A stretch of 20,238 nt of DNA from a virus, in the IMG/VR virus record IMGVR_UViG_3300017776_000276, positions 1 to 20,238 of that record. One strand, 5' to 3'. Position numbers and translations under genes: made by a program. The notes under the pieces were generated by a model, which made no database searches, had not been told where the DNA came from, and was given only the letters and a program-made list of their open reading frames with translations. Position 1 is the first letter of the stretch, and every line of letters starts with the position of its first letter. Below, one piece after another: positions 2,996 through 19,405 of the stretch.

Positions 2996-4465
2996 ATGGC
3001 AATTAATCCGGGTGCAAACCTGAACAGCGTACCTGCTTCACAAAAGCAGACTTTCGCTACAAATTATCTAGATCTTTCATCTGCATCAAATGCAGGTTGG
3101 GGACAACAATACCTGCCGGACTTGATGGAAAAAGAAGCTGAGGTTTTCGGACCTAGAACAATTTCTGGTTTCCTATCACAAGTTAGTGCAGAAGAAGCGA
3201 TGACTGCTGACCAAGTTGTTTGGTCTGAGCAAGGTCGTTTACATTTATCTTACAAAGGTAATATGTCTGGTAACGACGTTTTTACAGTAACTCACGATAT
3301 TGATGAGGCTTCAGGTTTTACTGCTGCTAATCACGGTGTTAGAGTTAATGATACTGTTTTAGTAGCAAATGCTAACGGTATATTCAAATGTTTAGTAACT
3401 ACAATTACCGCGGCTGCTATTACAGTTAAGTCTTACGACGGTACTCAAGTAGATCAGTTAACTACTGCTAAAGGTACAACTTTATTAGTTTATGGTTCTG
3501 AATATGGTAAAGGAACTGGTTACTACAGTAACAGTGCTGCTTCTACAACTTTAGAAAGACACACGTCTAACGAGCCTGACTTTAAAACTTTTACTAACAA
3601 ACCAATTATTATGAAAGATTTCTACGAAGTATCAGGTTCTGATGCATCTAGAATTGGTTGGGTTGAAGTTTCTACTGAAGCTGGACAATCAGGTTACTTA
3701 TGGTACTTAAAAGCTGAGTCTGACACAAGATCTCGTTTTACTGACTACATAGAAATGTCTATGCTAGAGTCTGTTAAAGGAGATGATAGTGTTAATGCCA
3801 ATTCTGTTGATGCTCACATACGTAACAATGCTGATGTAGTTGGTACTCAAGGTTTATTCGATGCTATCGAAGACAGAGGTAATGTTACTACTGGTGTTAC
3901 TGGTGTTAACGCTGCTACTGATTTAGCTGAATTTGATGCTATCTTAGCAGAATTTGATAAGCAAGGTGCTATTGAAGAATACATGATGTTTGTTAACAGA
4001 GGAACTAGCTTAGCTATGGACGATATGTTAGCTGCTATGAATTCTTACGGAGCTGGTGGTACATCATACGGTGTATTTAACAACTCTGAAGATATGGCAT
4101 TAAACTTAGGTTTCTCTGGTTTCAGACGTGGATCTTACGATTTCTACAAGTCTGACTTCAGATACTTAAACGATAAGTCTACAAGAGGTGGTATTAACGC
4201 TGCTAACGCTGCAAATGCGATTAGAGGGGTTATGATCCCAGCTGGTACTTCTTCAGTTTATGACCAAACTGTAGGGCAAAGTATGAAAAGACCTTTCTTA
4301 CACGTTAGATACAGAGCTTCACAAACTGATGACAGAAGAATGAAGTCATGGGTTACTGGTTCTGTTGGTGCTGCTACATCTGCTTTAGATGCAATGCACT
4401 TACACTTCTTAACTGAAAGATGTTTAATTACTCAAGGTGCTAACAATTTCATGTTATTGAAATAA
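2996..4465 (+). CDS. Major capsid protein (HK97-fold, crAss-like type)
   Basis: This 489-residue protein forms the icosahedral shell. Recognisable segments include residues 43-60 (LMEKEAEVFGPRTISGFL), MTADQVVWSEQGRLHLSY at 69-86, and a C-terminal block with KRPFLHVRYRASQTDDRRMK (431-450), SWVTGSVG and LTERCLITQGANNF (472-485), which I recall from crAss-like capsid proteins. A Val/Thr-rich beta segment near 110-165 may be an inserted surface or loop domain. Codon choice differs from neighbours: by hand count 13 of 22 Phe codons are TTC and 16 of 20 Tyr codons are TAC, while the connector gene at 5567 uses TTT for all 9 Phe codons and TAT for 11 of 13 Tyr codons. The first codons include CCG and CTG, uncommon elsewhere here. 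The start follows an A/T-only leader apart from a single C, and a strong terminator follows the stop. Confidence 0.85.
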   Translation: MAINPGANLNSVPASQKQTFATNYLDLSSASNAGWGQQYLPDLMEKEAEVFGPRTISGFLSQVSAEEAMTADQVVWSEQGRLHLSYKGNMSGNDVFTVTHDIDEASGFTAANHGVRVNDTVLVANANGIFKCLVTTITAAAITVKSYDGTQVDQLTTAKGTTLLVYGSEYGKGTGYYSNSAASTTLERHTSNEPDFKTFTNKPIIMKDFYEVSGSDASRIGWVEVSTEAGQSGYLWYLKAESDTRSRFTDYIEMSMLESVKGDDSVNANSVDAHIRNNADVVGTQGLFDAIEDRGNVTTGVTGVNAATDLAEFDAILAEFDKQGAIEEYMMFVNRGTSLAMDDMLAAMNSYGAGGTSYGVFNNSEDMALNLGFSGFRRGSYDFYKSDFRYLNDKSTRGGINAANAANAIRGVMIPAGTSSVYDQTVGQSMKRPFLHVRYRASQTDDRRMKSWVTGSVGAATSALDAMHLHFLTERCLITQGANNFMLLK

Positions 4466-7657: not shown

Positions 7658-10600
7658 ATGCCACAGATTAAAAACACTTTCACGGCGGGGAAGATGAACA
7701 AAGACCTTGACGAGAGATTAGTGCCTAATAACGAATATAGAAATGCATTGAATATACAAGTTTCTAATTCTGACGGCTCTAATGTTGGTGTTATTGAAAA
7801 TGTTAGAGGTAATCTTCAAAGACTTGCTGGGTCGGGTTCTGGTATTGATCATGGTAGTAGATGCGTTGGAACTATTGCAGACGAGTCAAAAGATCTTATA
7901 TATTGGTTTGTTGCATCTCCTATGTCTGGTAAAGTTGTTTATAACACAGAAGGCAATGAAGATTCAGGTGTTTTAGATTGGAGTTGTAGAAGTTGTTTGT
8001 TAGACGCTGTAGCTAACACTTGGTGGCGAGACAAAATATACCAATACAATTCTGTTTCTGAAATAATAAATCCAGTTTTTGTAGATAATTTTTTATTAAA
8101 AACATCTTTTTATCCTAGTGGTAACAATGCAAGTGGTTTAAATTTAAATACACCTGGCTCAACTGTTTTTAATGGAACTAGTAACAAGCATTTTTACACT
8201 TTAGATTTTATGCCAGGAGCTTATCGCGAGCAAGTTAGTGTTGGTATGACCGCGTATTTTTTTAATGGTAGTGCTCACAGTAACGTAGCAAACTTTTCTC
8301 AACCTGTTGGTCAATTTTCACAAGAAACTACACCAATAGTTAGAACTGTTATAAGTGTAGATAGAGATTTAAATGGTCGTACTTGTGTTATATTTGACAA
8401 GAATTTACAAGAAGAACACGACGGTCTTAATTTTGCTAATGGAAATAAACTTATAGACTCTTCTATTGCTGATTATAATTACATAGTTTTTACAAAGAAA
8501 AGACTTTTAAACTTTAACTGTGACAGTATAGTTACTGGTATAAACACACTTTATGATTTTTTATTATGGACAGACAATGATTCTGAACCTAAAAAATTAC
8601 ACGTTCCAAGAAGTGCGTTAGGTACTGATCCTAATGGAAAAAGAAGCACTAGACTTATAGTAGAGGAAAGAGGTATTGGTATTAAAGAAGATATATTAGT
8701 AAAAGAAGAAAATATATCTGTAATAAAAAAATACCCTAAAAACAAACCTTTAGTAGAAGAAAAAGTTGAATATGCTTTATTAGCTACAGCATCTTACAAT
8801 TTTACTAACCAACAAGAAATTGTTAACGGATTACCTACAAACTTGTTTTTATTAAGCGATCCTGGTGATGTAGTAAAAATACAATTTGATAACTTTCAAG
8901 GCGGAAATAATTTTATTGTAGGAGAAGAAATAAGATTTTTAGAACAATCTAGCTTATTACAATTGCCTGAAAATTTTTCTGTTAGATGTAAAGTACTAGA
9001 AAACATAAGTAATACAGTAGAAGTTTTTCCTCAACCTTTCCCACAGAGTCCACTTACAATACCACATGGCCCAAATACATACAAGTTAGAAATTTTAAGC
9101 ATATCATCTAATACTGTAATTGACCCTACAAACACGGTTAGAGAAGACTTTAATGTGCAAAGAGTTTTAGATGAAAAAAGTTTGTTTGAAAAAAACATGG
9201 CAAGATTTGGTTATAGATGGAGATACCAAGACGGTGAGTATTCTACATTTTCACCTTTTTCAAACATTGTTTTTGAGCCTGGTAAATTTAATTATGATTC
9301 TAAAAAAGCCTACAACAAGGCTATGCAAAACCAACTTATAAGATTAACTTTAAGAAACATTATAGCTAGTGATATGCCAGATGATGTTATTCAAGTTGAT
9401 ATTTTATACGTCGATTCTAACTCTCCAAATGTATATGTAGTTGATAAGTTAAGGTACAATGATTACGCACACGTTTCTATTGGTACTCAAATGTACAACC
9501 ACTGGCAATCTGATCAATACGAAATAAAATCCGATATTATATATGCAGCTGTACCAGAAAACCAATCGTTTAGATCTTGGGATAACGTTCCAAGAAAAGC
9601 ATTGGCTCAAGAAATAACTGGTAATAGACTTGTTTACGGTAATTATTTACAAAATTACACGTTAAGAAATAACTCTCCAGAAAACCTATATGAAAAACCA
9701 GTTTTAGAAACATCATTAGATGACAGGTGGAGTCCTCTCTTAATTCTCAACACTAACACTAGAGGTGGTATTACTACTACTACAATAACAACAAACAGAG
9801 TTTTATACAATGATACTTATTTTGACGAGCAAGCGATAAACAATCCAGAGTTAGATTTTCCTTTTTTACAAGCAGAACCTTTAGAGAATTTACTAGGAAA
9901 TCCATCATTAAAATCAAATAGAAAATACCAGCTAGGATTTACATATCTAGACGAATACGGTAGGGAAACACCTGTGTTTAGTAATTCAGAAGCAACTGTA
10001 GATGTAACAAAACAATACGCAGATGACTACACGTTATTAACTTCTAAAATAGTTTCTTTTCCACCTAGTTGGGCAACAGATTTTAGAGTTTATGTGAAAG
10101 AAACTTCAAATGAATATTACAATGTTGTTATGGACAGGGTTTATAGAGCTGAAGATGGTAACTTATGGTTATCGTTTCCTTCTTCTGAAAGAAATAAAAT
10201 ACAAGAAGATACATTTTTAATACTTAAAAAACCAGCTGATTCAGACACTTTAGTAGAAGATAAGGCTAGATATAAAGTGGTTTCAATAGAAAATGAAGTT
10301 CCAGATTATATAAAAACAAAACAAAAACTAGTTATAAAAGCTGTTGGTGATCAAAATCTTCTTCCAACTCCACCAATAACACATATATTTACAACAGGTG
10401 TTGGTAATACTAATTTAGACACTTTGTTGTCTCCTTTGTCTAGAACTTTTAAAATTGAAGCTACTAGATTAAGCGAAGAAACAGCTGTAAACTTGCAAGA
10501 CGCTGGTGTTAATGTATTTGATTTTAAAGTTGGAGGACAATACTCAAGAAAATACAACATCATAAACGTTACGCTTGACAATGACGAGTATACAATAACT

Positions 10601-13420
10601 TTAGATAAAATTATACATAGTAGTGAAGACTGGATGTACAGTGATGTTACAGCTGCTACATACGATGGTAAGTTACAATTATCTTTTTACAAAGAAATTA
10701 TTGATATTAAGCCAGAGTTTTTTGGAAAGTTTTTTGTTAAAATAGAAGGCGATGGAATTTCAGACCAGTATTTAAATACTAACGTAGAATCTGAAACTTT
10801 TTACGGGGTAATAACTTCTTTTAATTTTTTCTATTTTTCTGATCAAGGAAAATTTGGTATTCAAGATGGTACAACAACATTACAGTTAACTCCTAACGGC
10901 ACTACTTGGGAGTACTACCAATCAAACAACGGTTTTAATCCTCATTTAAATCAATCTGGATCTGTAATACATAGCGCGGGTACAAACATGGTTAGCGCTG
11001 AAACATCTACAGATAGCTCGAAGGATTGGGACGATGTGTTTGATTTAATAGGCCCTCAATTTGTTAGTGGACAACCATCAAGCGGTTGGTTTGTAGATGA
11101 AGTTTTTTATGCCGGAGTTCACCCAAGTGGTAATCACCCTAATATACATAATCCAAACAACGTGAACGCTACAGATGGTAATTTTAACTACGGTAGGGGT
11201 ATATTTAACGATGCAGGTCAAGATTATATAGAATTATCTTTTGGTCAAATAAAACCTGACTCTGGTGTAAATGGTAGTGCTTTTGCAGGTCCTAGTGGAG
11301 AAGAAATAAACTATGCTGATTTTAACGAAGCTTTTATATGGGAAGTTGGTAGTAGTCAAAATCCTGACCATGCAGATCAAAACTCTGTGACAAAAAATTT
11401 AATACCTGGTAGTAAATTTAGATTTTTAGGTGATCAATACTCTACAATATACACTATATCAGATAATGTTAGTATACAAAAAATTAGAAGATATAACCAT
11501 ACTGAGTGGGGTGAAGTAAAATATAGATTTGACCAATGGGTTGCAGATGGTAAACCTAACCCAGCACCGGGTAATTCAAATGAAAAATACCAAGAAGTGT
11601 GGAATAGATTTTCTTCTGCGAACAATAGAAGGTTAACGTATGTAATTCCTATTGATAAAGATATACTTGGTCCTAATGGTACTTTAATAAATGGAGATCC
11701 TGTAACAGATCCAGATAAAGCAAACTCAGCAACACAAGTATCTACGCCGCAAACAATACAGTTTATAGAACAAAGAAAAGATGAAGAAGCTGATATAATA
11801 TCAAGTAGCAACCCAGTTATATTTGAAACAGAACCAAAAGAAAATATTGATTTAAATATATTTTACCAAGCATCAGATTCTTATCCAACAAAATTAACTA
11901 TTGAAACAGCTGAGCAGTGGGTTCCTTTAGGTAGTGTTGTTACATGTAAGTCACATCCTTACGTTGTTAGCGCAACAAGTATAACATTTGTCACTGGTTG
12001 GGAAATAAATAACTATGGTGAGTTAATGATTAAGTTTAACCAGCCTTTAGATATTTTAGGTATGGGTAGACTAGACGTTACTGATCAACAAACTTTAATA
12101 TTAAGATTTGTTAGACCAGACAATTCATTTACAACTCTTAGAGGTGCTTGGATAAATCCTGTTACAGTTCCAGAATTTGCATCTGTTACTCCAAGTTTAG
12201 AAATAGGTAATCAAACTAACTATGTAACAAGTAATATGCCTTGGACAGAAACCGCTTATCAAGTTAGTAGTTCTAACGTGGCCGCTAATAAAATAGGCAT
12301 ATCCTGGTACAATACATTTTCATATGGTAATGGTGTTGAGTCTGATAGAATAAGAGATATTTTTAACGAAAAGAAACTAAGCAAAGGTGTTAAGGTTTCT
12401 ACAACTATTGATGAGCCATACGAAGAAGAAAGAAGAAGTAGTGGTTTAATATATTCCGGTATATATAATAGTAATAGTGGTGTAAATGATTTAAATCAAT
12501 TTATACAAGCAGAAAAAATAACTAAAGATTTAAATCCTACTTACGGAAGTATACAAAAATTGTTTTCAAGACAAACAGATTTAATATCTTTTTGTGAAGA
12601 CAGAGTTGTAAGAATAGCAGCAAACAAAGACGCAATATTTAATGCTGATGGTAATCCTCAGTTAATAGCAACAAACAATGTTCTTGGGCAAACAATGCCT
12701 TTTAGTGGTGATTTTGGAATCTCAACAAACCCAGAGTCTTTTGCTAAAGAAAGTTATAGGGCTTATTTTACAGACGCTAAAAATGGAACAGTACTTAGAT
12801 TATCTAAAGATGGTTTAACACCTATATCAGATTATGGTATGAAAGACTATTTTATCGATGTTTTAAAGAATAGCAATGAATACAGGATAATAGGTAGTTA
12901 TGATGATAAGAAAAACTTGTATAATCTGTCTATAAACAAAGATCAGTGCTCTTTACTTCAAGTTAGTTATGGAGATGAACAATCAACTGTTAGTTATTCT
13001 GAAAAAAATAGAGGTTGGGAAAGTTTTAAAAGCTTTGAACCAGAGCAAGGTGTAAGTCTTTCTGGTGAGTATTACACATATAAACATGGTTATTTATACA
13101 AGCACCATTCACCAGTTGTTGATAGAAATTCTTTTTATGGTCAACCTGGAGTTTCATCTGTAACGTTTTTATTTAACGCTTCACCAGGTGTTGTAAAGTC
13201 TTTTAATACTTTAAATTACGAGGGTACAGAGGCGAGTGTTGTTCAAGAAACTGCACACCCAGTAGTTCAGTCAAATTCAAATAGAGGTTTTTACAATTTA
13301 ACTGGAATAGATGGTTGGATTGTTTCAGATATAAAAACAAACAAACAAGATGGTGATGTTCAAGAGTTTATAGAAAAAGAAGGTAAATGGTTTAATTATA
13401 TAAAGGGTAAGAAATTATGA
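7658..13420 (+). CDS. Giant tail stabilisation ('muzzle'-type) protein
   Basis: At 1920 residues this is the largest gene here. Its N-terminus (residues 3-33: QIKNTFTAGKMNKDLDERLV, PNNEYRNALNI) is a strong hallmark of the stabilisation proteins of crAss-like and marine flavophages. Further conserved-looking segments are GYRWRYQDGEYSTFSPFSNI (518-537), KYQLGFTYLDEYGRETPVFS (756-775), KLFSRQTDLISFCEDRV (1634-1650), GVSLSGEYYTYKHGYLYKHH (1798-1817) and the end WFNYIKGKKL (1911-1920). Most of the length looks beta-rich, with many Asn, Asp, Ser and Thr and no transmembrane segment. In the known family it forms the distal part of the short tail. The start is supported by the conserved N-terminus. 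The end overlaps the next gene by ATGA, suggesting translational coupling. The middle region, about 1000-1600, I cannot assign and may carry lineage-specific insertions. Confidence 0.75.
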   Translation: MPQIKNTFTAGKMNKDLDERLVPNNEYRNALNIQVSNSDGSNVGVIENVRGNLQRLAGSGSGIDHGSRCVGTIADESKDLIYWFVASPMSGKVVYNTEGNEDSGVLDWSCRSCLLDAVANTWWRDKIYQYNSVSEIINPVFVDNFLLKTSFYPSGNNASGLNLNTPGSTVFNGTSNKHFYTLDFMPGAYREQVSVGMTAYFFNGSAHSNVANFSQPVGQFSQETTPIVRTVISVDRDLNGRTCVIFDKNLQEEHDGLNFANGNKLIDSSIADYNYIVFTKKRLLNFNCDSIVTGINTLYDFLLWTDNDSEPKKLHVPRSALGTDPNGKRSTRLIVEERGIGIKEDILVKEENISVIKKYPKNKPLVEEKVEYALLATASYNFTNQQEIVNGLPTNLFLLSDPGDVVKIQFDNFQGGNNFIVGEEIRFLEQSSLLQLPENFSVRCKVLENISNTVEVFPQPFPQSPLTIPHGPNTYKLEILSISSNTVIDPTNTVREDFNVQRVLDEKSLFEKNMARFGYRWRYQDGEYSTFSPFSNIVFEPGKFNYDSKKAYNKAMQNQLIRLTLRNIIASDMPDDVIQVDILYVDSNSPNVYVVDKLRYNDYAHVSIGTQMYNHWQSDQYEIKSDIIYAAVPENQSFRSWDNVPRKALAQEITGNRLVYGNYLQNYTLRNNSPENLYEKPVLETSLDDRWSPLLILNTNTRGGITTTTITTNRVLYNDTYFDEQAINNPELDFPFLQAEPLENLLGNPSLKSNRKYQLGFTYLDEYGRETPVFSNSEATVDVTKQYADDYTLLTSKIVSFPPSWATDFRVYVKETSNEYYNVVMDRVYRAEDGNLWLSFPSSERNKIQEDTFLILKKPADSDTLVEDKARYKVVSIENEVPDYIKTKQKLVIKAVGDQNLLPTPPITHIFTTGVGNTNLDTLLSPLSRTFKIEATRLSEETAVNLQDAGVNVFDFKVGGQYSRKYNIINVTLDNDEYTITLDKIIHSSEDWMYSDVTAATYDGKLQLSFYKEIIDIKPEFFGKFFVKIEGDGISDQYLNTNVESETFYGVITSFNFFYFSDQGKFGIQDGTTTLQLTPNGTTWEYYQSNNGFNPHLNQSGSVIHSAGTNMVSAETSTDSSKDWDDVFDLIGPQFVSGQPSSGWFVDEVFYAGVHPSGNHPNIHNPNNVNATDGNFNYGRGIFNDAGQDYIELSFGQIKPDSGVNGSAFAGPSGEEINYADFNEAFIWEVGSSQNPDHADQNSVTKNLIPGSKFRFLGDQYSTIYTISDNVSIQKIRRYNHTEWGEVKYRFDQWVADGKPNPAPGNSNEKYQEVWNRFSSANNRRLTYVIPIDKDILGPNGTLINGDPVTDPDKANSATQVSTPQTIQFIEQRKDEEADIISSSNPVIFETEPKENIDLNIFYQASDSYPTKLTIETAEQWVPLGSVVTCKSHPYVVSATSITFVTGWEINNYGELMIKFNQPLDILGMGRLDVTDQQTLILRFVRPDNSFTTLRGAWINPVTVPEFASVTPSLEIGNQTNYVTSNMPWTETAYQVSSSNVAANKIGISWYNTFSYGNGVESDRIRDIFNEKKLSKGVKVSTTIDEPYEEERRSSGLIYSGIYNSNSGVNDLNQFIQAEKITKDLNPTYGSIQKLFSRQTDLISFCEDRVVRIAANKDAIFNADGNPQLIATNNVLGQTMPFSGDFGISTNPESFAKESYRAYFTDAKNGTVLRLSKDGLTPISDYGMKDYFIDVLKNSNEYRIIGSYDDKKNLYNLSINKDQCSLLQVSYGDEQSTVSYSEKNRGWESFKSFEPEQGVSLSGEYYTYKHGYLYKHHSPVVDRNSFYGQPGVSSVTFLFNASPGVVKSFNTLNYEGTEASVVQETAHPVVQSNSNRGFYNLTGIDGWIVSDIKTNKQDGDVQEFIEKEGKWFNYIKGKKL

Positions 13421-16400
13421 CAATAACAGCAGGAGATTTAGATTCTAGTGCGTTTAACATACAAGGTGTTGGCTTTGCCACTGGCTTACAACCACCACTA
13501 GTTGGTTGTAGAGATTCAGCCGCGGATAATTTTAATATAGATACTGGAGGTGTTTACGGAGCTGTTGGTGCAGTTGTTATATTTAATACACACTCTAACC
13601 CAGGTGATCCTAACGAGTGTTTATACACTGGCTGTATGGATCCAAACTCATCATCATTTTTCTCCACAGTATACAATGGTAACACATACTATGCGACAAC
13701 ACCAGGATCTTGTGATTACGAAGGTTGTAACGATTCTTTAGCGTATAATTTTAATACAACTTGTAGTGGTTATGTTTTGCCTTTAGGAACTTCAATAACA
13801 ATAACAAACAATGGGTGTTGTACATATCCTGATTCTTGGGATTGCGATACTGTTAACGGTGGTTGTACTACAGTTTCAGGTGGTACTGGTACTTATGTTG
13901 TTTGTAGCGATTTTTACGATCCTACAGCGCAAGCTAATACTCCTGCTGGTTGTTATGCAACACCTATAGATGCTATGGCAGCCGCGTGTACAAGTGGTGC
14001 TTGCCCAGCTTGTGGTTCAAGTTCAGTTCAAGGTTGTACTGATGACTGTTCTCCAAATTACGATCCATTAGCAACTTGTGATGATGGAAGTTGCACTACA
14101 GTTGTTTATGGGTGCATGGATGATGGTAGAATGGCTGCTGGGCAGGTAAACAGTAGTAGTAATTCAATATGGCCATCAAACGCTTGTCTTGGAGCTACGT
14201 GTAATGGCTATGATTCTTACGATTCTACTTGGAGCTATATAGATCTTACCGGTATAGAACTCAACATTAATTTAGGTGATGATATTATCGCTGATAATTA
14301 TAATGCTATCGCAACCCACATGGATTGTAGTTGTGAATACCACGGTTGTACAGATTCTCAAGCAATAAACTATGAGTCGTTTTACACTCACGAAGATGGT
14401 TCTTGTATTTATGCTGGTTGTACCGATCCAACATCTGTAAATGGAGTTACAACATACAACCATCCAAACCCAACTACTTTTTATACAAATCCTATTGATG
14501 CTACAATTGATGATGGAAGTTGTGTTGTTTTTGGTTGTAATCCTATTGATACCCCTAACGTTGCACCTTGGAATGGAAATCCTATAAAAGAAACCATGAT
14601 TAATGACAATGCTTTTGAAAAAGCTATTGAATCTTGGAACGAAGGTAGTTTAAATACTCAAATGGCTGGCCTTTACTATGGGCATGCTGGTAATTTTGAC
14701 GATACAATAAGTCCTTTAGCTCAACCTGGAACTCCAAGTTGTGGTATACCTTCTACTTTTGCAAATAATTTAAACAATATTGTTGATTATGGTAATGGAT
14801 TAACGGGAACTTGTACAGTAACTGAATACTTATCACACATGGCTTGGGAAGATAATACCGGCTCGTATGTTTACGATGGATTAAGCTGTACGCAAGGTTT
14901 TGCAAATGCATGGGGGCCTTTTGACGATAGGTATTGGACTGCTAGTGGTGGGCATAATGATGGTTTTTATTTAAAAAGATTTGGATTTCCACCATTAACT
15001 AATCCTTCTCACAAAACAATGATGTCTCCTATTGGTCAAGACATAACTGATCTTTCTGGTATTCAAGACTTTGCATTAAACCCAGCGTTTAAAAGACTTG
15101 TTATACATAACCAATATATAACTAGTTTTATTCACTCTGAAACTGATCCTGCAAGTCCTTACCACGGGTTAGACATGTTAGACACTTTATTTCAACACGC
15201 GCCAAACTTTGATTTTTTATCTTTAAAATCTTGCTCGATTGGAGGCTCAGGAGAAGTTTTAGATTTAACAAACTGGACTAACTGTAAAGTCGTAGAACTT
15301 GTTGACCTTGGTTACGATGAGGTTAATATAAACCATATAGATAATCCTAATTGTCACTCTATATTTATTGTTAATGACTTAGCTCCTGGAAACAATAATG
15401 GAAATTTAGGTAGTAGTTCTAGCTTGAGAAATGAAAGAGCTGCTGGACACGCAAGTCAAGGTTTTACCGGTTACAGCAGAGATCTTAATATAAACTGGAA
15501 TTCTCACACCCCCGGCACTATACCAACACCTACAACGGCGGATGCAGACGAAAGTTATAGGCAAGTTGAAACCTGCGGTTATGGTTACAATAAAAGCGGG
15601 CTAAATAGTATTTCAGGTGCTTTAGTAGGTAAAATGTATTATAATGTTGACGACAGTATTGGTGCAAACTTTCCGCCTCAAGGACCAGGTTTTACCGGTT
15701 GGGATCTTAACAATGGTTTTACCACTGGTCCAGCTGATCGTTTTGTGCCTCAATACAAGTTAGCTCCAATTGTTCAAAGTGGGCAAAATTATGGCCAGAG
15801 AAATGGTAACAACTTAATAAACACAAGAAGAGGTAGTACCAATGCTTTTCCTGACCAAGTGCATCCTGCTGGACTAGGCTCTAACCGAGGACATAGCACA
15901 AATAACTACCAGCTAATGTGGAATTATCAAGGAAATATTCATGGTATGACACTCGGTAGCCAGCTGTTAACACCAGGTGGTGAATACCACAATGGTTTTG
16001 GTTGGATTGATCACCCTTCTACATTAAGGTTAGGTGGTAATCCGCACGACTCGCCAGTAGGATTATGGTATGGGCCTGGAACTGCATTTCCAAATTACTC
16101 ACCGCCAGACCCTAATAGAACAATAGATCTTCAATTAGCTTACCCTAAAACTGAGGAAACAAATTTTGCAAAACTAGGTACTATATCGCAAAGTCAATTA
16201 ATTTTAATTAATTTAAAAAACTTAAGACATGTTTGGTTAGGGCCAGATTGGGACCCTCAATACGCCATGAATACTCCAAACGTGCAACCAGCAGGTGCAA
16301 ATTTTGGAGTTCCTCAAGTTAATCCAAAACGAGCACATTATAGAGGTTTTTCAATAAAAGGGTGTGGTAATGGCCAACCAGTTTATGTTCATACTGATGG

Positions 16401-16539
16401 TAGAGCAATGGAGTTTAAAAAAAGATATGGAACAAACGATCAAACCGCTTTAAATCAATTTGGGGAGCCTATATGGACACCAGAAGCTGAAACTTTCTTT
16501 TTAATGTATTTTGATAGCAACGTAGTGTTTGTTGATTAA
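13417..16539 (+). CDS. Cys-rich, LRR-like adhesin / receptor-binding candidate
   Basis: This 1040-residue protein is in two parts. Residues 30-374 hold 29 cysteines in imperfect units that open GC[TMNR]D and close with DDGSC or EDGSC, for example GCTDDCSPNYDPLATCDDG at 206-224. Such units are common in secreted flavobacterial surface proteins. Only 8 cysteines occur in the other 666 residues. Residues 394-410 (MINDNAFEKAIESWNEG) and 543-570 (ITDLSGIQDF, then KRLVIHNQYITS) resemble the start and first repeat of flavobacterial leucine-rich-repeat proteins; LRR-like strands continue to about 655 (FDFLSLKSCSIGG, VVELVDLGYDEVNINH). Residues 680-1040 are Gly/Asn/Pro-rich and unrecognised. There is no signal peptide, as expected for a virion protein. 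It follows the muzzle gene with a 4-base overlap. A host-binding role is inferred from architecture and position. Confidence 0.6.
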   Translation: MTITAGDLDSSAFNIQGVGFATGLQPPLVGCRDSAADNFNIDTGGVYGAVGAVVIFNTHSNPGDPNECLYTGCMDPNSSSFFSTVYNGNTYYATTPGSCDYEGCNDSLAYNFNTTCSGYVLPLGTSITITNNGCCTYPDSWDCDTVNGGCTTVSGGTGTYVVCSDFYDPTAQANTPAGCYATPIDAMAAACTSGACPACGSSSVQGCTDDCSPNYDPLATCDDGSCTTVVYGCMDDGRMAAGQVNSSSNSIWPSNACLGATCNGYDSYDSTWSYIDLTGIELNINLGDDIIADNYNAIATHMDCSCEYHGCTDSQAINYESFYTHEDGSCIYAGCTDPTSVNGVTTYNHPNPTTFYTNPIDATIDDGSCVVFGCNPIDTPNVAPWNGNPIKETMINDNAFEKAIESWNEGSLNTQMAGLYYGHAGNFDDTISPLAQPGTPSCGIPSTFANNLNNIVDYGNGLTGTCTVTEYLSHMAWEDNTGSYVYDGLSCTQGFANAWGPFDDRYWTASGGHNDGFYLKRFGFPPLTNPSHKTMMSPIGQDITDLSGIQDFALNPAFKRLVIHNQYITSFIHSETDPASPYHGLDMLDTLFQHAPNFDFLSLKSCSIGGSGEVLDLTNWTNCKVVELVDLGYDEVNINHIDNPNCHSIFIVNDLAPGNNNGNLGSSSSLRNERAAGHASQGFTGYSRDLNINWNSHTPGTIPTPTTADADESYRQVETCGYGYNKSGLNSISGALVGKMYYNVDDSIGANFPPQGPGFTGWDLNNGFTTGPADRFVPQYKLAPIVQSGQNYGQRNGNNLINTRRGSTNAFPDQVHPAGLGSNRGHSTNNYQLMWNYQGNIHGMTLGSQLLTPGGEYHNGFGWIDHPSTLRLGGNPHDSPVGLWYGPGTAFPNYSPPDPNRTIDLQLAYPKTEETNFAKLGTISQSQLILINLKNLRHVWLGPDWDPQYAMNTPNVQPAGANFGVPQVNPKRAHYRGFSIKGCGNGQPVYVHTDGRAMEFKKRYGTNDQTALNQFGEPIWTPEAETFFLMYFDSNVVFVD
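13504..14538 (+). repeat. Degenerate Cys repeats (GCxD...DDGSC)
   Basis: These are protein-level repeats in residues 30-374 of the adhesin candidate. Openings GC[TMNR]D or GCN occur at residues 30, 72, 103, 206, 232, 310, 334 and 373. Closings of the DGSC type occur at 223-226, 327-330 and 366-369, with a shorter GSCD at 97-100. Spacing is irregular, so this is a diverged array, not a recent tandem expansion. At DNA level GATGATGGAAGTTG recurs exactly at 14080 and again near 14507. Confidence 0.75.
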
Positions 16540-16549
16540 TAAAAATTAT

Positions 16550-17836
16550 ATGAAAAAAATAAATAAAATAACTATGGACACTAGCCCTATGAAGGCTACC
16601 AAAACAATAAGAAGTTATATTGTTGAAGGAGATCCTGGTGCTATGTTTAGTTTAAGAATTAGAAATAAATCTAATGCTTATTACTATAATTTTCCAGAAA
16701 ACATTGACCCTGCGTTTGCAACCCCACCAACACCCGCATTTACAGCAACTGTTGTAGAGTTGAATCCTAAGACAATAGATAATAGCGGTGTTTACAAAGG
16801 GTATGTATCTTTTCCAGCTATATCAGGTAATGATGGTTATAAAATGACTTTATTACCAAAAGGAAACACTGAATTAGATAGTAATTTATCGATTGAAAAA
16901 AGCTTTGAATTTCCTAGAGGTTTTTTATCGCAATATAGTAATACAGCTGTTACATTTAGCTTATTACACTCTAACTCTGCTGTTGTAGAACCTAGTAATG
17001 TTGTTTCTACAGGTGCTAATCATGTTATATCTACAGGCGCTACAAATTCATTTTCTATAAATTGGGATATAACACTTAATTCTAGTCAGTGTGTTATAGC
17101 AAGACAACCTATTGCAACTGACATTGAATTTACAACAACTAAAAAAACAAGAGGTACAAAAACTTCTAATATAGATAAATTTGAATTAACTGATATTACT
17201 GGTTTAAGTGTTGGTATGGGTGTTAGCGGTACAGATATTGATACTGGCACTACAATAACTTCTATAAACAAAGGTTATTATGACGAAACAAATTCTACGT
17301 TACAAAATCCTATATATATAGTGCCTAATATTTTAATTTTTGATGAGGAAAACAAACAAATCATGACACCTGATAAAGGTGGTACAATAACTTTAAGCAC
17401 TACAGCTAGTAGCCATGTAGATGATAGGACTATAACTTTTACAGGCAAAGGACCTGCTCACGCTAAAAACTTTAATAATACTGAGTTTGAAGTAAATAAT
17501 TTTGCAGTTACTATAGACCCAATAACAACAACAACAGACGCTGTAGTTAGTAATAGCACAACAATACCTATAACAAGTACAGACGGTATAAAAGCTGCTG
17601 ACACAGTTTTAATGTCAGGTATAGGTGTTACTGCTAACGCACCACACGTAGACACTGTAAACAATGGTGTTTCAGTTGTAGTAAGCTCGGCACAAACAAT
17701 AGAAAACGGTCAAACAGTGGTGTTTACTGGTAGCAGTAGATCTGCTAACGTAAAACTTGATGTTAAAGTTTTAAACCACGGTAAAGCACCAATAACATTG
17801 AAACTAAATTTAGATAACATTTTAACAGTAGGATAA
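16550..17836 (+). CDS. Beta-rich virion surface protein, function unknown
   Basis: I start this gene at ATG 16550 (428 residues, MKKINKITMDTSPMKATKTI) and not at a TTG codon at 16529 that would overlap the upstream gene; the ATG follows TAATAAAAATTAT, matching other starts here. The protein is rich in Thr, Ser, Val, Ile and Asn, with one Cys (181), no helix-rich stretch and no membrane segment, so a chain of beta domains is likely. Residues 204-299 and 333-396 look like two copies of one module: a [VI]xxT..G[IL]xx...V[LG]MSG-like segment followed by a [TV]VFTG-type strand. The first copy has an insertion of about 35 residues. The first copy also carries VGMGVSGTDIDTGTTITSIN (221-240), like the connector at 6287. 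Placed between adhesin and S74 genes, it is probably a tail-tip or fibre component; this is inference. Confidence 0.7.
   Translation: MKKINKITMDTSPMKATKTIRSYIVEGDPGAMFSLRIRNKSNAYYYNFPENIDPAFATPPTPAFTATVVELNPKTIDNSGVYKGYVSFPAISGNDGYKMTLLPKGNTELDSNLSIEKSFEFPRGFLSQYSNTAVTFSLLHSNSAVVEPSNVVSTGANHVISTGATNSFSINWDITLNSSQCVIARQPIATDIEFTTTKKTRGTKTSNIDKFELTDITGLSVGMGVSGTDIDTGTTITSINKGYYDETNSTLQNPIYIVPNILIFDEENKQIMTPDKGGTITLSTTASSHVDDRTITFTGKGPAHAKNFNNTEFEVNNFAVTIDPITTTTDAVVSNSTTIPITSTDGIKAADTVLMSGIGVTANAPHVDTVNNGVSVVVSSAQTIENGQTVVFTGSSRSANVKLDVKVLNHGKAPITLKLNLDNILTVG
17159..17737 (+). repeat. Two diverged copies of a beta module
   Basis: Residues 204-299 (17159-17446) and 333-396 (17546-17737) of the 428-residue protein share an order of elements: a short strand, TDITGLSVGMGVSG versus TDGIKAADTVLMSGIGV, then TITSIN versus VDTVNN, then a strand ending TITFTG versus TVVFTG. 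Identity is low and the pairing was made by eye. Confidence 0.4.
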
Positions 17837-17837
17837 T

Positions 17838-18185
17838 ATGACAGTAACATTTTTAGATCAAATAAACGTATCAGTACAAGTAGGTGATTTGGCTTGGTTT
17901 TTAACACCAGCGCCATCTGGCGTGCCTGGCAACCAGTATGATATTGGCTCAGCCTCTAACTCTTTATTGTTTGGTGAAATAACAGCTGTGAGTCCGTTTA
18001 CAATAACTGTTGACACACCTATAAACATACCATTAAGTAATAGTTATATATTGTTTTCTAAAAACAATGAAGCTAATAAAAGTAATTTGGTTGGTTACTA
18101 TGCTGAGGTTACAATGGTTAACCAAAGAAAAGATAGAGTAGAATTATACTCTGTAGGTACTGAGATAACAGAAAGTAGTAAATAA
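17838..18185 (+). CDS. Small conserved phage structural protein, unknown role
   Basis: This 115-residue protein starts one base after the preceding stop. It begins MTVTFLDQINVSVQVGDLAWF, has a central beta-rich stretch (LLFGEITAVSPFTITVD) and ends with a well-conserved looking tail, YILFSKNNEANKSNLVGYYA (70-89), then EVTMVNQRKDRVELYSVGTE and ITESSK. I recall this C-terminal pattern (LFSK.N..N.S.L.GYYA..........EL..VG.E..ESSK) in many uncultured marine phage proteins of about this size, without a known function. It has no cysteine and no membrane segment. Tight spacing suggests cotranscription with the gene at 16550. A small tail or fibre accessory protein is plausible but only from context. 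Confidence 0.7.
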   Translation: MTVTFLDQINVSVQVGDLAWFLTPAPSGVPGNQYDIGSASNSLLFGEITAVSPFTITVDTPINIPLSNSYILFSKNNEANKSNLVGYYAEVTMVNQRKDRVELYSVGTEITESSK

Positions 18186-18226
18186 AACACAAAAAGTGTG
18201 ATTATAATTAATAAGAAAAAATAAAC

Positions 18227-19405
18227 ATGGCACTAGGAAAAAGAATTAATACATTAAAATTAAAAAAGAGTAGCCCTGCTAAGGGTTTGTTTGACAGTAT
18301 ATGGTCTGAAAGTGGTGGTTGGTTTGGTGATAAAGCAGAGAAAAGAAAAGCCACACAGGCCGAAGACAGAATGAACCAAGCTGTTGATGCTTTTGGTAAC
18401 TTAGATACTAGTAATTTAGCTGCAGGTCTTACAAATCCATATGCAGATGCTAAAAATGTATATGCAGGAGCTCAAAATACTTTTGCTGGCGCTAAAAATG
18501 CTTTTGCTGGAGCTCAAAACCAATTTGCAAATGTGCAAAATCAATTTGGTAATTTACAAAATACAGCTGAAGACTTAACTGTTAACACACAACAAGCGGA
18601 GTTTGAAAAACAACAATTTCAACAAAGCCAAGCTAATATGCTTAGTAATCTTGCTGGTGCTGCTGGTGGTAGTGGTGTTGCTGGTTTAGCTCAAGCGTTG
18701 TCAAATCAAAACATGAGACAAGCACAACAAAGCTCTGCTAGCATAGGACAGCAAGAATCTCAGAATCAAGCTTTAGCAGCGCAACAAGCTGCTTCAAATC
18801 AAATGGCTTCTGCACAAGGAGCTCAATCAGCTGAAATGGCTAGAGCGCAAGGAGCTGCAGACCAACAGCGTATGATAATGGGTGGTGCTGCAGATCAACA
18901 ATCGCAAATAATGCAAGGTGCAGCTGCTCAACAAGCAATGGTGTTAGGTGGTGCTGCCTCGCAACAAGGAATGATTTTAGGTGGTGCTGCAGAGCTACAG
19001 TATAATCAACTAGCAAGTGCTGAAACTGCTAGAGGTTTAGAATACGAAAAACAACAAGCTATGGTAGCTGCTAGATCTGGGCAATACGCAACTGCTGAGC
19101 AACAAAGACAGCAAGGCAACACGTTTAATCAATACATGGGTTACTTAGGTACTGTAGCGGATCTTGCAGGTAGTGCTGGATCTATTGCTACAAGTGATAG
19201 AAAATTAAAGAAAAATATAAGTTTAATTGGTAAATCACCCAGTGGTATTAACATATATTCTTTTGAATATAAAAACAAAGAAAAATTTGGCAATGGAGTT
19301 TACCAAGGAGTTATGGCAGACGAAGTTCCACAAGCTGTTGTCAAACTTAATAATTACAACGCTGTTGATTACAATAAAATTGACGTAAACTTTAAACAGA
19401 TATAA
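18227..19405 (+). CDS. Coiled-coil virion protein with C-terminal S74 chaperone domain
   Basis: This protein has 392 residues. The N-terminus (1-50) is basic. Residues 70-111 are six heptads of the form Nx[YF]AxA[QK]. Residues 117-160 (DLTVNTQQAEFEKQQFQQSQ, GAAGGSGVAGLAQAL) I recall from many marine phage proteins. Residues 162-300 are Ala/Gln-rich, with five 11-residue repeats at 209-263. The end (322-392) matches the intramolecular chaperone / peptidase S74 domain: SDRKLKKNISLIGKSPSG, then YSFEYKN, GVMADEVPQAVV and AVDYNKIDV. In phage fibres this domain helps trimerise the fibre and then cuts itself off at the Ser of the SD motif (Ser323 here). The domain is a compact form of about 70 residues. 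A trimeric fibre or needle-like component is likely. Whether it cleaves is not shown. Confidence 0.75.
   Translation: MALGKRINTLKLKKSSPAKGLFDSIWSESGGWFGDKAEKRKATQAEDRMNQAVDAFGNLDTSNLAAGLTNPYADAKNVYAGAQNTFAGAKNAFAGAQNQFANVQNQFGNLQNTAEDLTVNTQQAEFEKQQFQQSQANMLSNLAGAAGGSGVAGLAQALSNQNMRQAQQSSASIGQQESQNQALAAQQAASNQMASAQGAQSAEMARAQGAADQQRMIMGGAADQQSQIMQGAAAQQAMVLGGAASQQGMILGGAAELQYNQLASAETARGLEYEKQQAMVAARSGQYATAEQQRQQGNTFNQYMGYLGTVADLAGSAGSIATSDRKLKKNISLIGKSPSGINIYSFEYKNKEKFGNGVYQGVMADEVPQAVVKLNNYNAVDYNKIDVNFKQI
18434..18559 (+). repeat. Six 21-base (7-residue) repeats
   Basis: Residues 70-111 of the S74 protein read as NPYADAK, NVYAGAQ, NTFAGAK, NAFAGAQ, NQFANVQ and NQFGNLQ without register shift. 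An aromatic at position 3 and small residues at 4 and 6 recur. At DNA level the units are similar but not identical. Confidence 0.85.
18851..19015 (+). repeat. Five 33-base (11-residue) repeats
   Basis: Residues 209-263 of the S74 protein read as GAADQQRMIMG, GAADQQSQIMQ, GAAAQQAMVLG, GAASQQGMILG and GAAELQYNQLA in exact register. GGTGGTGCTGC recurs at the DNA level at three of the unit junctions. An 11-residue period is typical of right-handed or hendecad coiled coils. Confidence 0.85.
19190..19402 (+). other. S74 / intramolecular chaperone domain
   Basis: Residues 322-392 of the preceding gene. Seen directly: the TSDRKLKKNI start with its Ser-Asp pair, then SPSGINIYSFEY and GVYQGVMADEVPQ, and the ending YNAVDYNKID. 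These follow the order known for the endosialidase-type self-cleaving chaperone family, in a shortened version. Confidence 0.8.

Follow-up and report, generated by a model that had tools for sequence, protein, structure and literature searches.

The DNA analyzed here (the window) is a viral record of 20,238 bases, with the gene order portal, scaffold-like protein, major capsid protein, connector-type proteins, muzzle and the gene under study (the target gene), followed by a 428/435-aa protein, a 115-aa protein and a cargo-like protein. The muzzle ORF matches Pfam PF25729 (crAss_MUZ_C, 7e-8) and phrog_14478 (5e-130), and tblastn aligns it with the muzzles of phi38:1, elemo and Gundel; a PDB sequence search with the muzzle returned no match. 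Because it carries crAss_MUZ_C and its relatives in the phage collection belong to phages of Flavobacterium, Cellulophaga, Tenacibaculum and Maribacter, a marine crassvirus infecting Flavobacteriaceae is the most likely source, the host being read from these phage relatives. The features of the locus are as follows:

7658..13420, plus strand: muzzle (tail-tip) body, 1920 aa, ending ...GKWFNYIKGKKL* (PF25729, phrog_14478, tblastn)
13415..13420, plus strand: TTATGA overlap of muzzle stop and target start, identical in all four orthologues
13417..16539, plus strand: target gene, putative 1040-aa muzzle-associated adhesin arm (ORF; three further orthologues)
13432..13479, plus strand: muzzle-derived peptide, residues 6-21 (..LDSSAFNIQGVGFA), proposed docking segment (peptide HMM)
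13507..14538, plus strand: Cys-rich GCxD/DDGSC stalk, residues 31-374, 29 Cys (Cys count, orthologue alignment)
14032..14094, plus strand: compact DDGSC unit, residues 206-226 (29.7 bits to the cellular unit HMM)
14344..14406, plus strand: compact DDGSC unit, residues 310-330 (GCTDSQAINYESFYTHEDGSC; 23.3 bits to the cellular unit HMM)
14596..14634, plus strand: LRR N-cap-like helix, residues 394-406 (MINDNAFEKAIES; motif order with ITDLSG, low-confidence AF2 helix)
14647..15033, plus strand: variable insert 1, residues 411-539 (51-64% identity, indels)
15034..15384, plus strand: LRR-like core, residues 540-656, about four repeats (AF2, Foldseek; 73-80% identity)
15385..16191, plus strand: variable insert 2, residues 657-925 (48-50% identity, 31-61 gap columns)
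16192..16536, plus strand: conserved C-terminal part, residues 926-1040 (72-75% identity)
16550..17836, plus strand: 428-aa beta-rich neighbor protein (ATG start; 435 aa if read from an upstream TTG)
17838..18185, plus strand: 115-aa gene for the muzzle's C-terminal beta domain, here detached (HMM, alignment)

The target ORF opens with an ATG at 13417 and its stop ends at 16539, giving 1040 aa, which bears out the coordinates of the initial annotation. Orthologues lie at the identical position on three independent contigs (L003, L004 and L313), four including the window. An assembly artefact was considered and rejected, since the four orthologues stem from separate contigs with identical gene order. 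The target protein has no Pfam, PHROG, NCBIfam or PDB-sequence match, and viral scans for relatives of its C-part found only the same lineage and L313. The 428-aa neighbor has a homologue at the corresponding position in L003, L008 and L313; its match to Phage_cement_2 is weak and below the cut-off.

Comparison with related muzzles reveals a split chain. In phi38:1, elemo, Gundel, L013, L016 and L018, a single muzzle ORF contains the body, a GIG-type peptide and a C-terminal beta domain; the body of these relatives ends with GKWFNYI[KR]G or an equivalent, followed by the ‘..F.(I/V)QGIG’ peptide. In all four orthologous loci the muzzle ORF ends right after GKWFNYIKGKKL, just ahead of the QGIG peptide. 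In the window, body, peptide and beta domain are spread over three cistrons, and the muzzle body is separated from its detached beta domain by the adhesin block and the 428-aa protein. The N-terminus of the target (MTITAGDLDSSAFNIQGVGFA) is a muzzle-type peptide without a hydrophobic leader: against an HMM of this peptide built from 13 other muzzles, the four orthologues score 11.9-16.8 bits (best of 2000 shuffles, 5.5). Similarly, the 115-aa gene scores 47.4 bits (E 1.2e-16) against an HMM of single-ORF muzzle C-termini, the best of 2000 shuffles reaching 12.4. On sequence evidence, the target gene is a segment detached from the muzzle chain; it starts with the muzzle's own post-body peptide and is an ORF separate from the muzzle body in all four orthologues. 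The absence of a signal peptide had been noted initially and holds, the N-terminus being a non-hydrophobic muzzle peptide. The placement ‘directly behind the muzzle gene’ is right in that the two genes adjoin and crAss_MUZ_C lies upstream, but it understates the relationship, as the gene itself derives from that chain. The upstream gene is the crassvirus muzzle itself (phi-crAss001 gp44; PF25729), whereas the muzzles of phi-crAss001, phi38:1, elemo and Gundel are unsplit and lack a DDGSC or LRR block at the post-body point.

The TTATGA overlap suggests coupled translation of muzzle and target. Termination-reinitiation is preferred over a programmed -1 frameshift, which was rejected, because the junction GGT AAG AAA TTA TGA lacks a slippery heptamer and, upstream of its ATG, the target frame stays open for just two codons.

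Behind the peptide, residues 31-374 form a Cys-rich stretch that contains exactly 29 of the protein's 37 cysteines, the number originally claimed, and all 29 are invariant across the four orthologues at 70-92% identity of the region. The description of this stretch as ‘GCxD...DDGSC units’ is apt at the profile level and loose in detail: residues 1-380 score 61.9 bits against an HMM of cellular 21-residue units (best of 1000 shuffles, 6.7), but with three [DE]DGSC endings (222, 326 and 365) and seven GCxD starts there are only two compact units, the third (334-369) being expanded and the remainder partial or stretched. The 21-residue unit GC[TM]D..A.NY...A..DDGSC is shared with exported DDGSC proteins of Flavobacteriales, Saprospiraceae and Neomarinimicrobiota. 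These cellular proteins usually carry a leader-like N-terminus (86 of 98 cellular DDGSC ORFs among the matches listed, by a simple hydrophobicity rule), whereas the target starts without one, and long inserts stretch its units. Lacking a leader, the target falls outside the exported Bacteroidota surface-protein class, though it is built partly from the modules of that class. Disulfide-rich repeats were also singled out as notable; they are less unusual than supposed, tail disulfides having been reported for the barrel and fiber hubs of phi-crAss001 (PMC10172136).

The distal part of the protein is less easily placed. The NDNAFEKAI cap motif and ITDLSGIQDF are both present and in the right order, an order in common with Bacteroidota NFEQAL-cap LRR proteins (Pfam LRR_4 / LRR_EndoS type). 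Unlike these proteins, the target is too divergent for a Pfam LRR match, and two large inserts interrupt its array. The proposed resemblance to a cap plus LRRs therefore stands for the motifs and their order, but the scores exceed chance only slightly (5.7 bits against the flavobacterial cap+LRR profile versus a shuffle maximum of 2.5; 30.0 in hhalign versus a null maximum of 23.6), and the cap lies about 140 residues from ITDLSGIQDF, versus about 30 in cellular segments. Structure prediction, envisaged at the outset as a check on the solenoid, gives a partial answer. An AF2 model of residues 535-660 from four sequences (pLDDT 59, pTM 0.57) contains evenly spaced short strands, at 26-30, 66-70, 91-95 and 114-118 of the folded piece, with LRR-like spacing, and the top Foldseek matches of this model are mostly LRR proteins (kinetochore CTF13-type, internalins, TLR2, TSH receptor), at E>0.09; on the other side, Foldseek returned no match to the model at E<=0.001, and AF2 of residues 374-1040 is uninformative (pLDDT 29). 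Residues 540-656 are likely a divergent solenoid of the Bacteroidota LRR type, as the model and motifs suggest. The cap+LRR type is carried by 71 of the 199 genomes of the sampled order, which, together with the mostly exported cellular DDGSC ORFs, agrees with the earlier statement that both modules are known from cellular Bacteroidota. A profile of the C-part alignment found no match in the same 199 genomes, in a search run without a positive control; no alignable cellular relative of the LRR part was found, and this part is too divergent for a meaningful tree. The DDGSC units, at 21 aa, offer too little length for tree building.

Two side observations concern LRRs elsewhere. Three unannotated records of the phage collection (OR846716, OR846725 and OR848132; Listeria phage LM 4-11-1 and 4-14-1) have internalin-like LRR matches and look like host DNA. 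In G055, a genome of the sampled order, contigs C1, C3, C4 and C6 contain many cap+LRR stretches with in-frame stops, which look like decayed or shuffled LRR cassettes.

The outer segments of the target are also where close phages differ. They share 59-77% DNA identity, versus 97-100% in much of the backbone. Aligned with L004 in steps of 100 nt, the stalk is 80-100% identical, whereas the head, apart from the LRR core, is mostly 45-70% identical, with many indels. Within the head, the inserts (48-64% identity) are more variable than the LRR core (73-80%) and the C-terminal part (72-75%). The target thus combines a conserved anchor with a variable distal part, as expected of a phage receptor-binding protein. 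In the tip, dN/dS is 0.16-0.53, below 1, and dS jumps with dN; because the two rise together, alleles have apparently been exchanged between phages, and such exchange, together with relaxed constraint, seems to account for the divergence of the tip more than any detectable positive selection does. Comparable blocks occur outside the target: window positions 3001-4000, in the middle of the major capsid gene, are 63-84% identical to L004, and positions 7751-12500, in the middle of the muzzle, 56-92%, versus 97-100% in neighboring genes, as if allele blocks had been exchanged there.

Among the matches listed, at least 16 of the 120 viral DDGSC loci sampled encode a muzzle and DDGSC repeats in one ORF, a count that describes this sample and not a prevalence. 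A QG[IL][GA]-type peptide lies between muzzle and DDGSC in 13 of the 16 fused ORFs, and a muzzle is found in none of 119 cellular DDGSC loci (both among the matches listed). DDGSC-bearing muzzles are a recurrent phage architecture. On the IMG/VR contigs L031, L041, L047, L093, L109, L128, L130, L135 and others, the order of body, QG[IL]G peptide and DDGSC is that of the window, but in one ORF where the window has separate cistrons. The tips past the DDGSC stretch are unlike that of the window (L135, for instance, has an fn3-like domain) and completely unlike one another. The target shares with this class the post-body position, the start with a QG[ILV]G peptide and the DDGSC stretch after the peptide; what it lacks is a polypeptide shared with the muzzle body. 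It belongs with the muzzle extensions, set apart from the fused ones as a separate gene. Since fused genes exist in relatives, it can be argued that the separate muzzle and target products also work together.

A second phage pairs the same two modules. Contig L271 (IMGVR_UViG_3300031628_000011) encodes at 12396-18992 a 2198-aa protein with DDGSC units, fn3 and four classical cap+LRR arrays; it belongs to phrog_7816 (function unknown), has no leader and lies in a phage structural gene cluster. Like the target, it is leaderless and joins DDGSC units to cap+LRR, so the pairing is not an accident of the window. The phage differs in having another head protein family and its own portal, and the protein in its classical repeats, its extra fn3 and a position not behind a recognized muzzle.

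Other phage proteins show further variants. At the equivalent position in a related phage (L008:14522-18661) lies a 1379-aa Cys-rich protein with a different tip and a different N-terminal beta domain, which by eye resembles the next, 165-aa protein. In L005, L006, L009 and L010, the first post-muzzle protein (about 420-450 aa) has one DDGSC unit and is perhaps a reduced form of the window arrangement. Viral DDGSC proteins with leader-like N-termini (the MKKLL..FSQ..D.YPSETSW family) occur in L044, L083, L104, L071, L137 and others, the one in L104 near a tail-fiber homologue; they are possibly phage-encoded secreted proteins. Among the annotated phage records searched, the DDGSC repeat occurs in only one, a single-cell-derived marine virus, and the papers searched contained nothing relevant on the repeat or on LRRs of crass-like phages.

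Four findings are direct observations: the muzzle is split, relatives have it fused to DDGSC repeats, the stalk cysteines are conserved and the tip diverges. They are probably best read together as a host-attachment arm at the crassvirus tail tip: a C-terminal extension of the muzzle that would have been separated later into its own cistron and that consists of peptide, stalk and LRR head. The first ~21 residues would probably dock the arm onto the hexameric muzzle; residues 31-374 would form a rigid, disulfide-stabilized DDGSC stalk; residues 394-1040 would adopt, as a whole, a divergent Bacteroidota-type LRR head; and the two variable inserts (411-539 and 657-925) would contact the host surface and so give the target its role in receptor binding. 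The two downstream genes would complete the block, the last of them representing the muzzle's own C-terminal beta domain. From the muzzle fusions and the neighborhood we infer that the target is part of the virion, at the tail.

The alternatives differ mainly in what the head is for and where it came from. The target could instead decorate the muzzle or stabilize its gate, with the Cys-rich and LRR-like parts shielding or rigidifying it while tail fibers or the crass domain recognize the host. The 29 invariant cysteines suggest a structural role, and in the cultured relatives phi38:1, elemo and Gundel infection proceeds with no such block immediately downstream of the muzzle. In phi-crAss001 the muzzle lies at the tail tip, and its crass domain and separate tail fibers are the proposed cell contacts (PMC10172136); tail fibers encoded beyond this 20-kb fragment could likewise be the main receptor binders here. 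We nevertheless regard a decorating role as unlikely: few stretches differ as much between otherwise near-identical phages as the distal part does, and the wholly different tips of the fused muzzles are expected of recognition rather than structural modules.

The initial annotation had proposed an attachment protein assembled from host-shared modules, and the hypervariable tip and the link to the muzzle fit the attachment role. The origin is where this proposal may need revision: because muzzles with DDGSC repeats recur among phages, the module may have come most immediately from another phage and not from the host. In its strict form, mimicry would mean that the protein has a flavobacterial surface protein as its direct source and makes homotypic contacts with a DDGSC/LRR surface layer of the host. 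The strong match to the cellular DDGSC unit profile, the leader usual in cellular DDGSC ORFs and the frequency of cap+LRR proteins in the sampled order would fit, but the phage muzzles offer a nearer source, and the 199-genome profile search, which had no positive control, yielded no cellular relative of the C-part; strict mimicry accordingly seems improbable, more so than decoration. Less probable still is a role outside the virion, in which the infected cell would display or release the protein, as in superinfection exclusion or lysogenic conversion. DDGSC proteins with leader-like N-termini are indeed found on some viral contigs, that of L104 beside a tail-fiber homologue, but the target has no leader, lies inside the muzzle block and starts with the muzzle peptide.

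A wider and more tentative proposal, to which we give slightly less than even chances, is that marine crassviruses possess a general slot behind the muzzle body for interchangeable DDGSC-stalked arms, here encoded separately, docked non-covalently and headed by LRRs. The docked LRR-headed arm of this lineage would then represent an LRR-based class of receptor-binding proteins in tailed phages, a class for which we found no description in these phages. The muzzle slot, with swappable arms that are in some cases fused and in others encoded by a separate gene, would be a concrete place to seek host-range determinants in uncultured marine crassviruses. A widespread, unnamed Cys-rich repeat of marine Bacteroidota surface proteins is now linked to phage tail tips, which raises the question of which way the DDGSC module moved.

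DDGSC motifs also occur in archaeal bins (L189, L201, L214, L226, L234, L235, L262 and L263) assigned to Marine Group III, Thalassarchaeaceae and Nanoarchaeota, where they represent either real genes or phage contamination.
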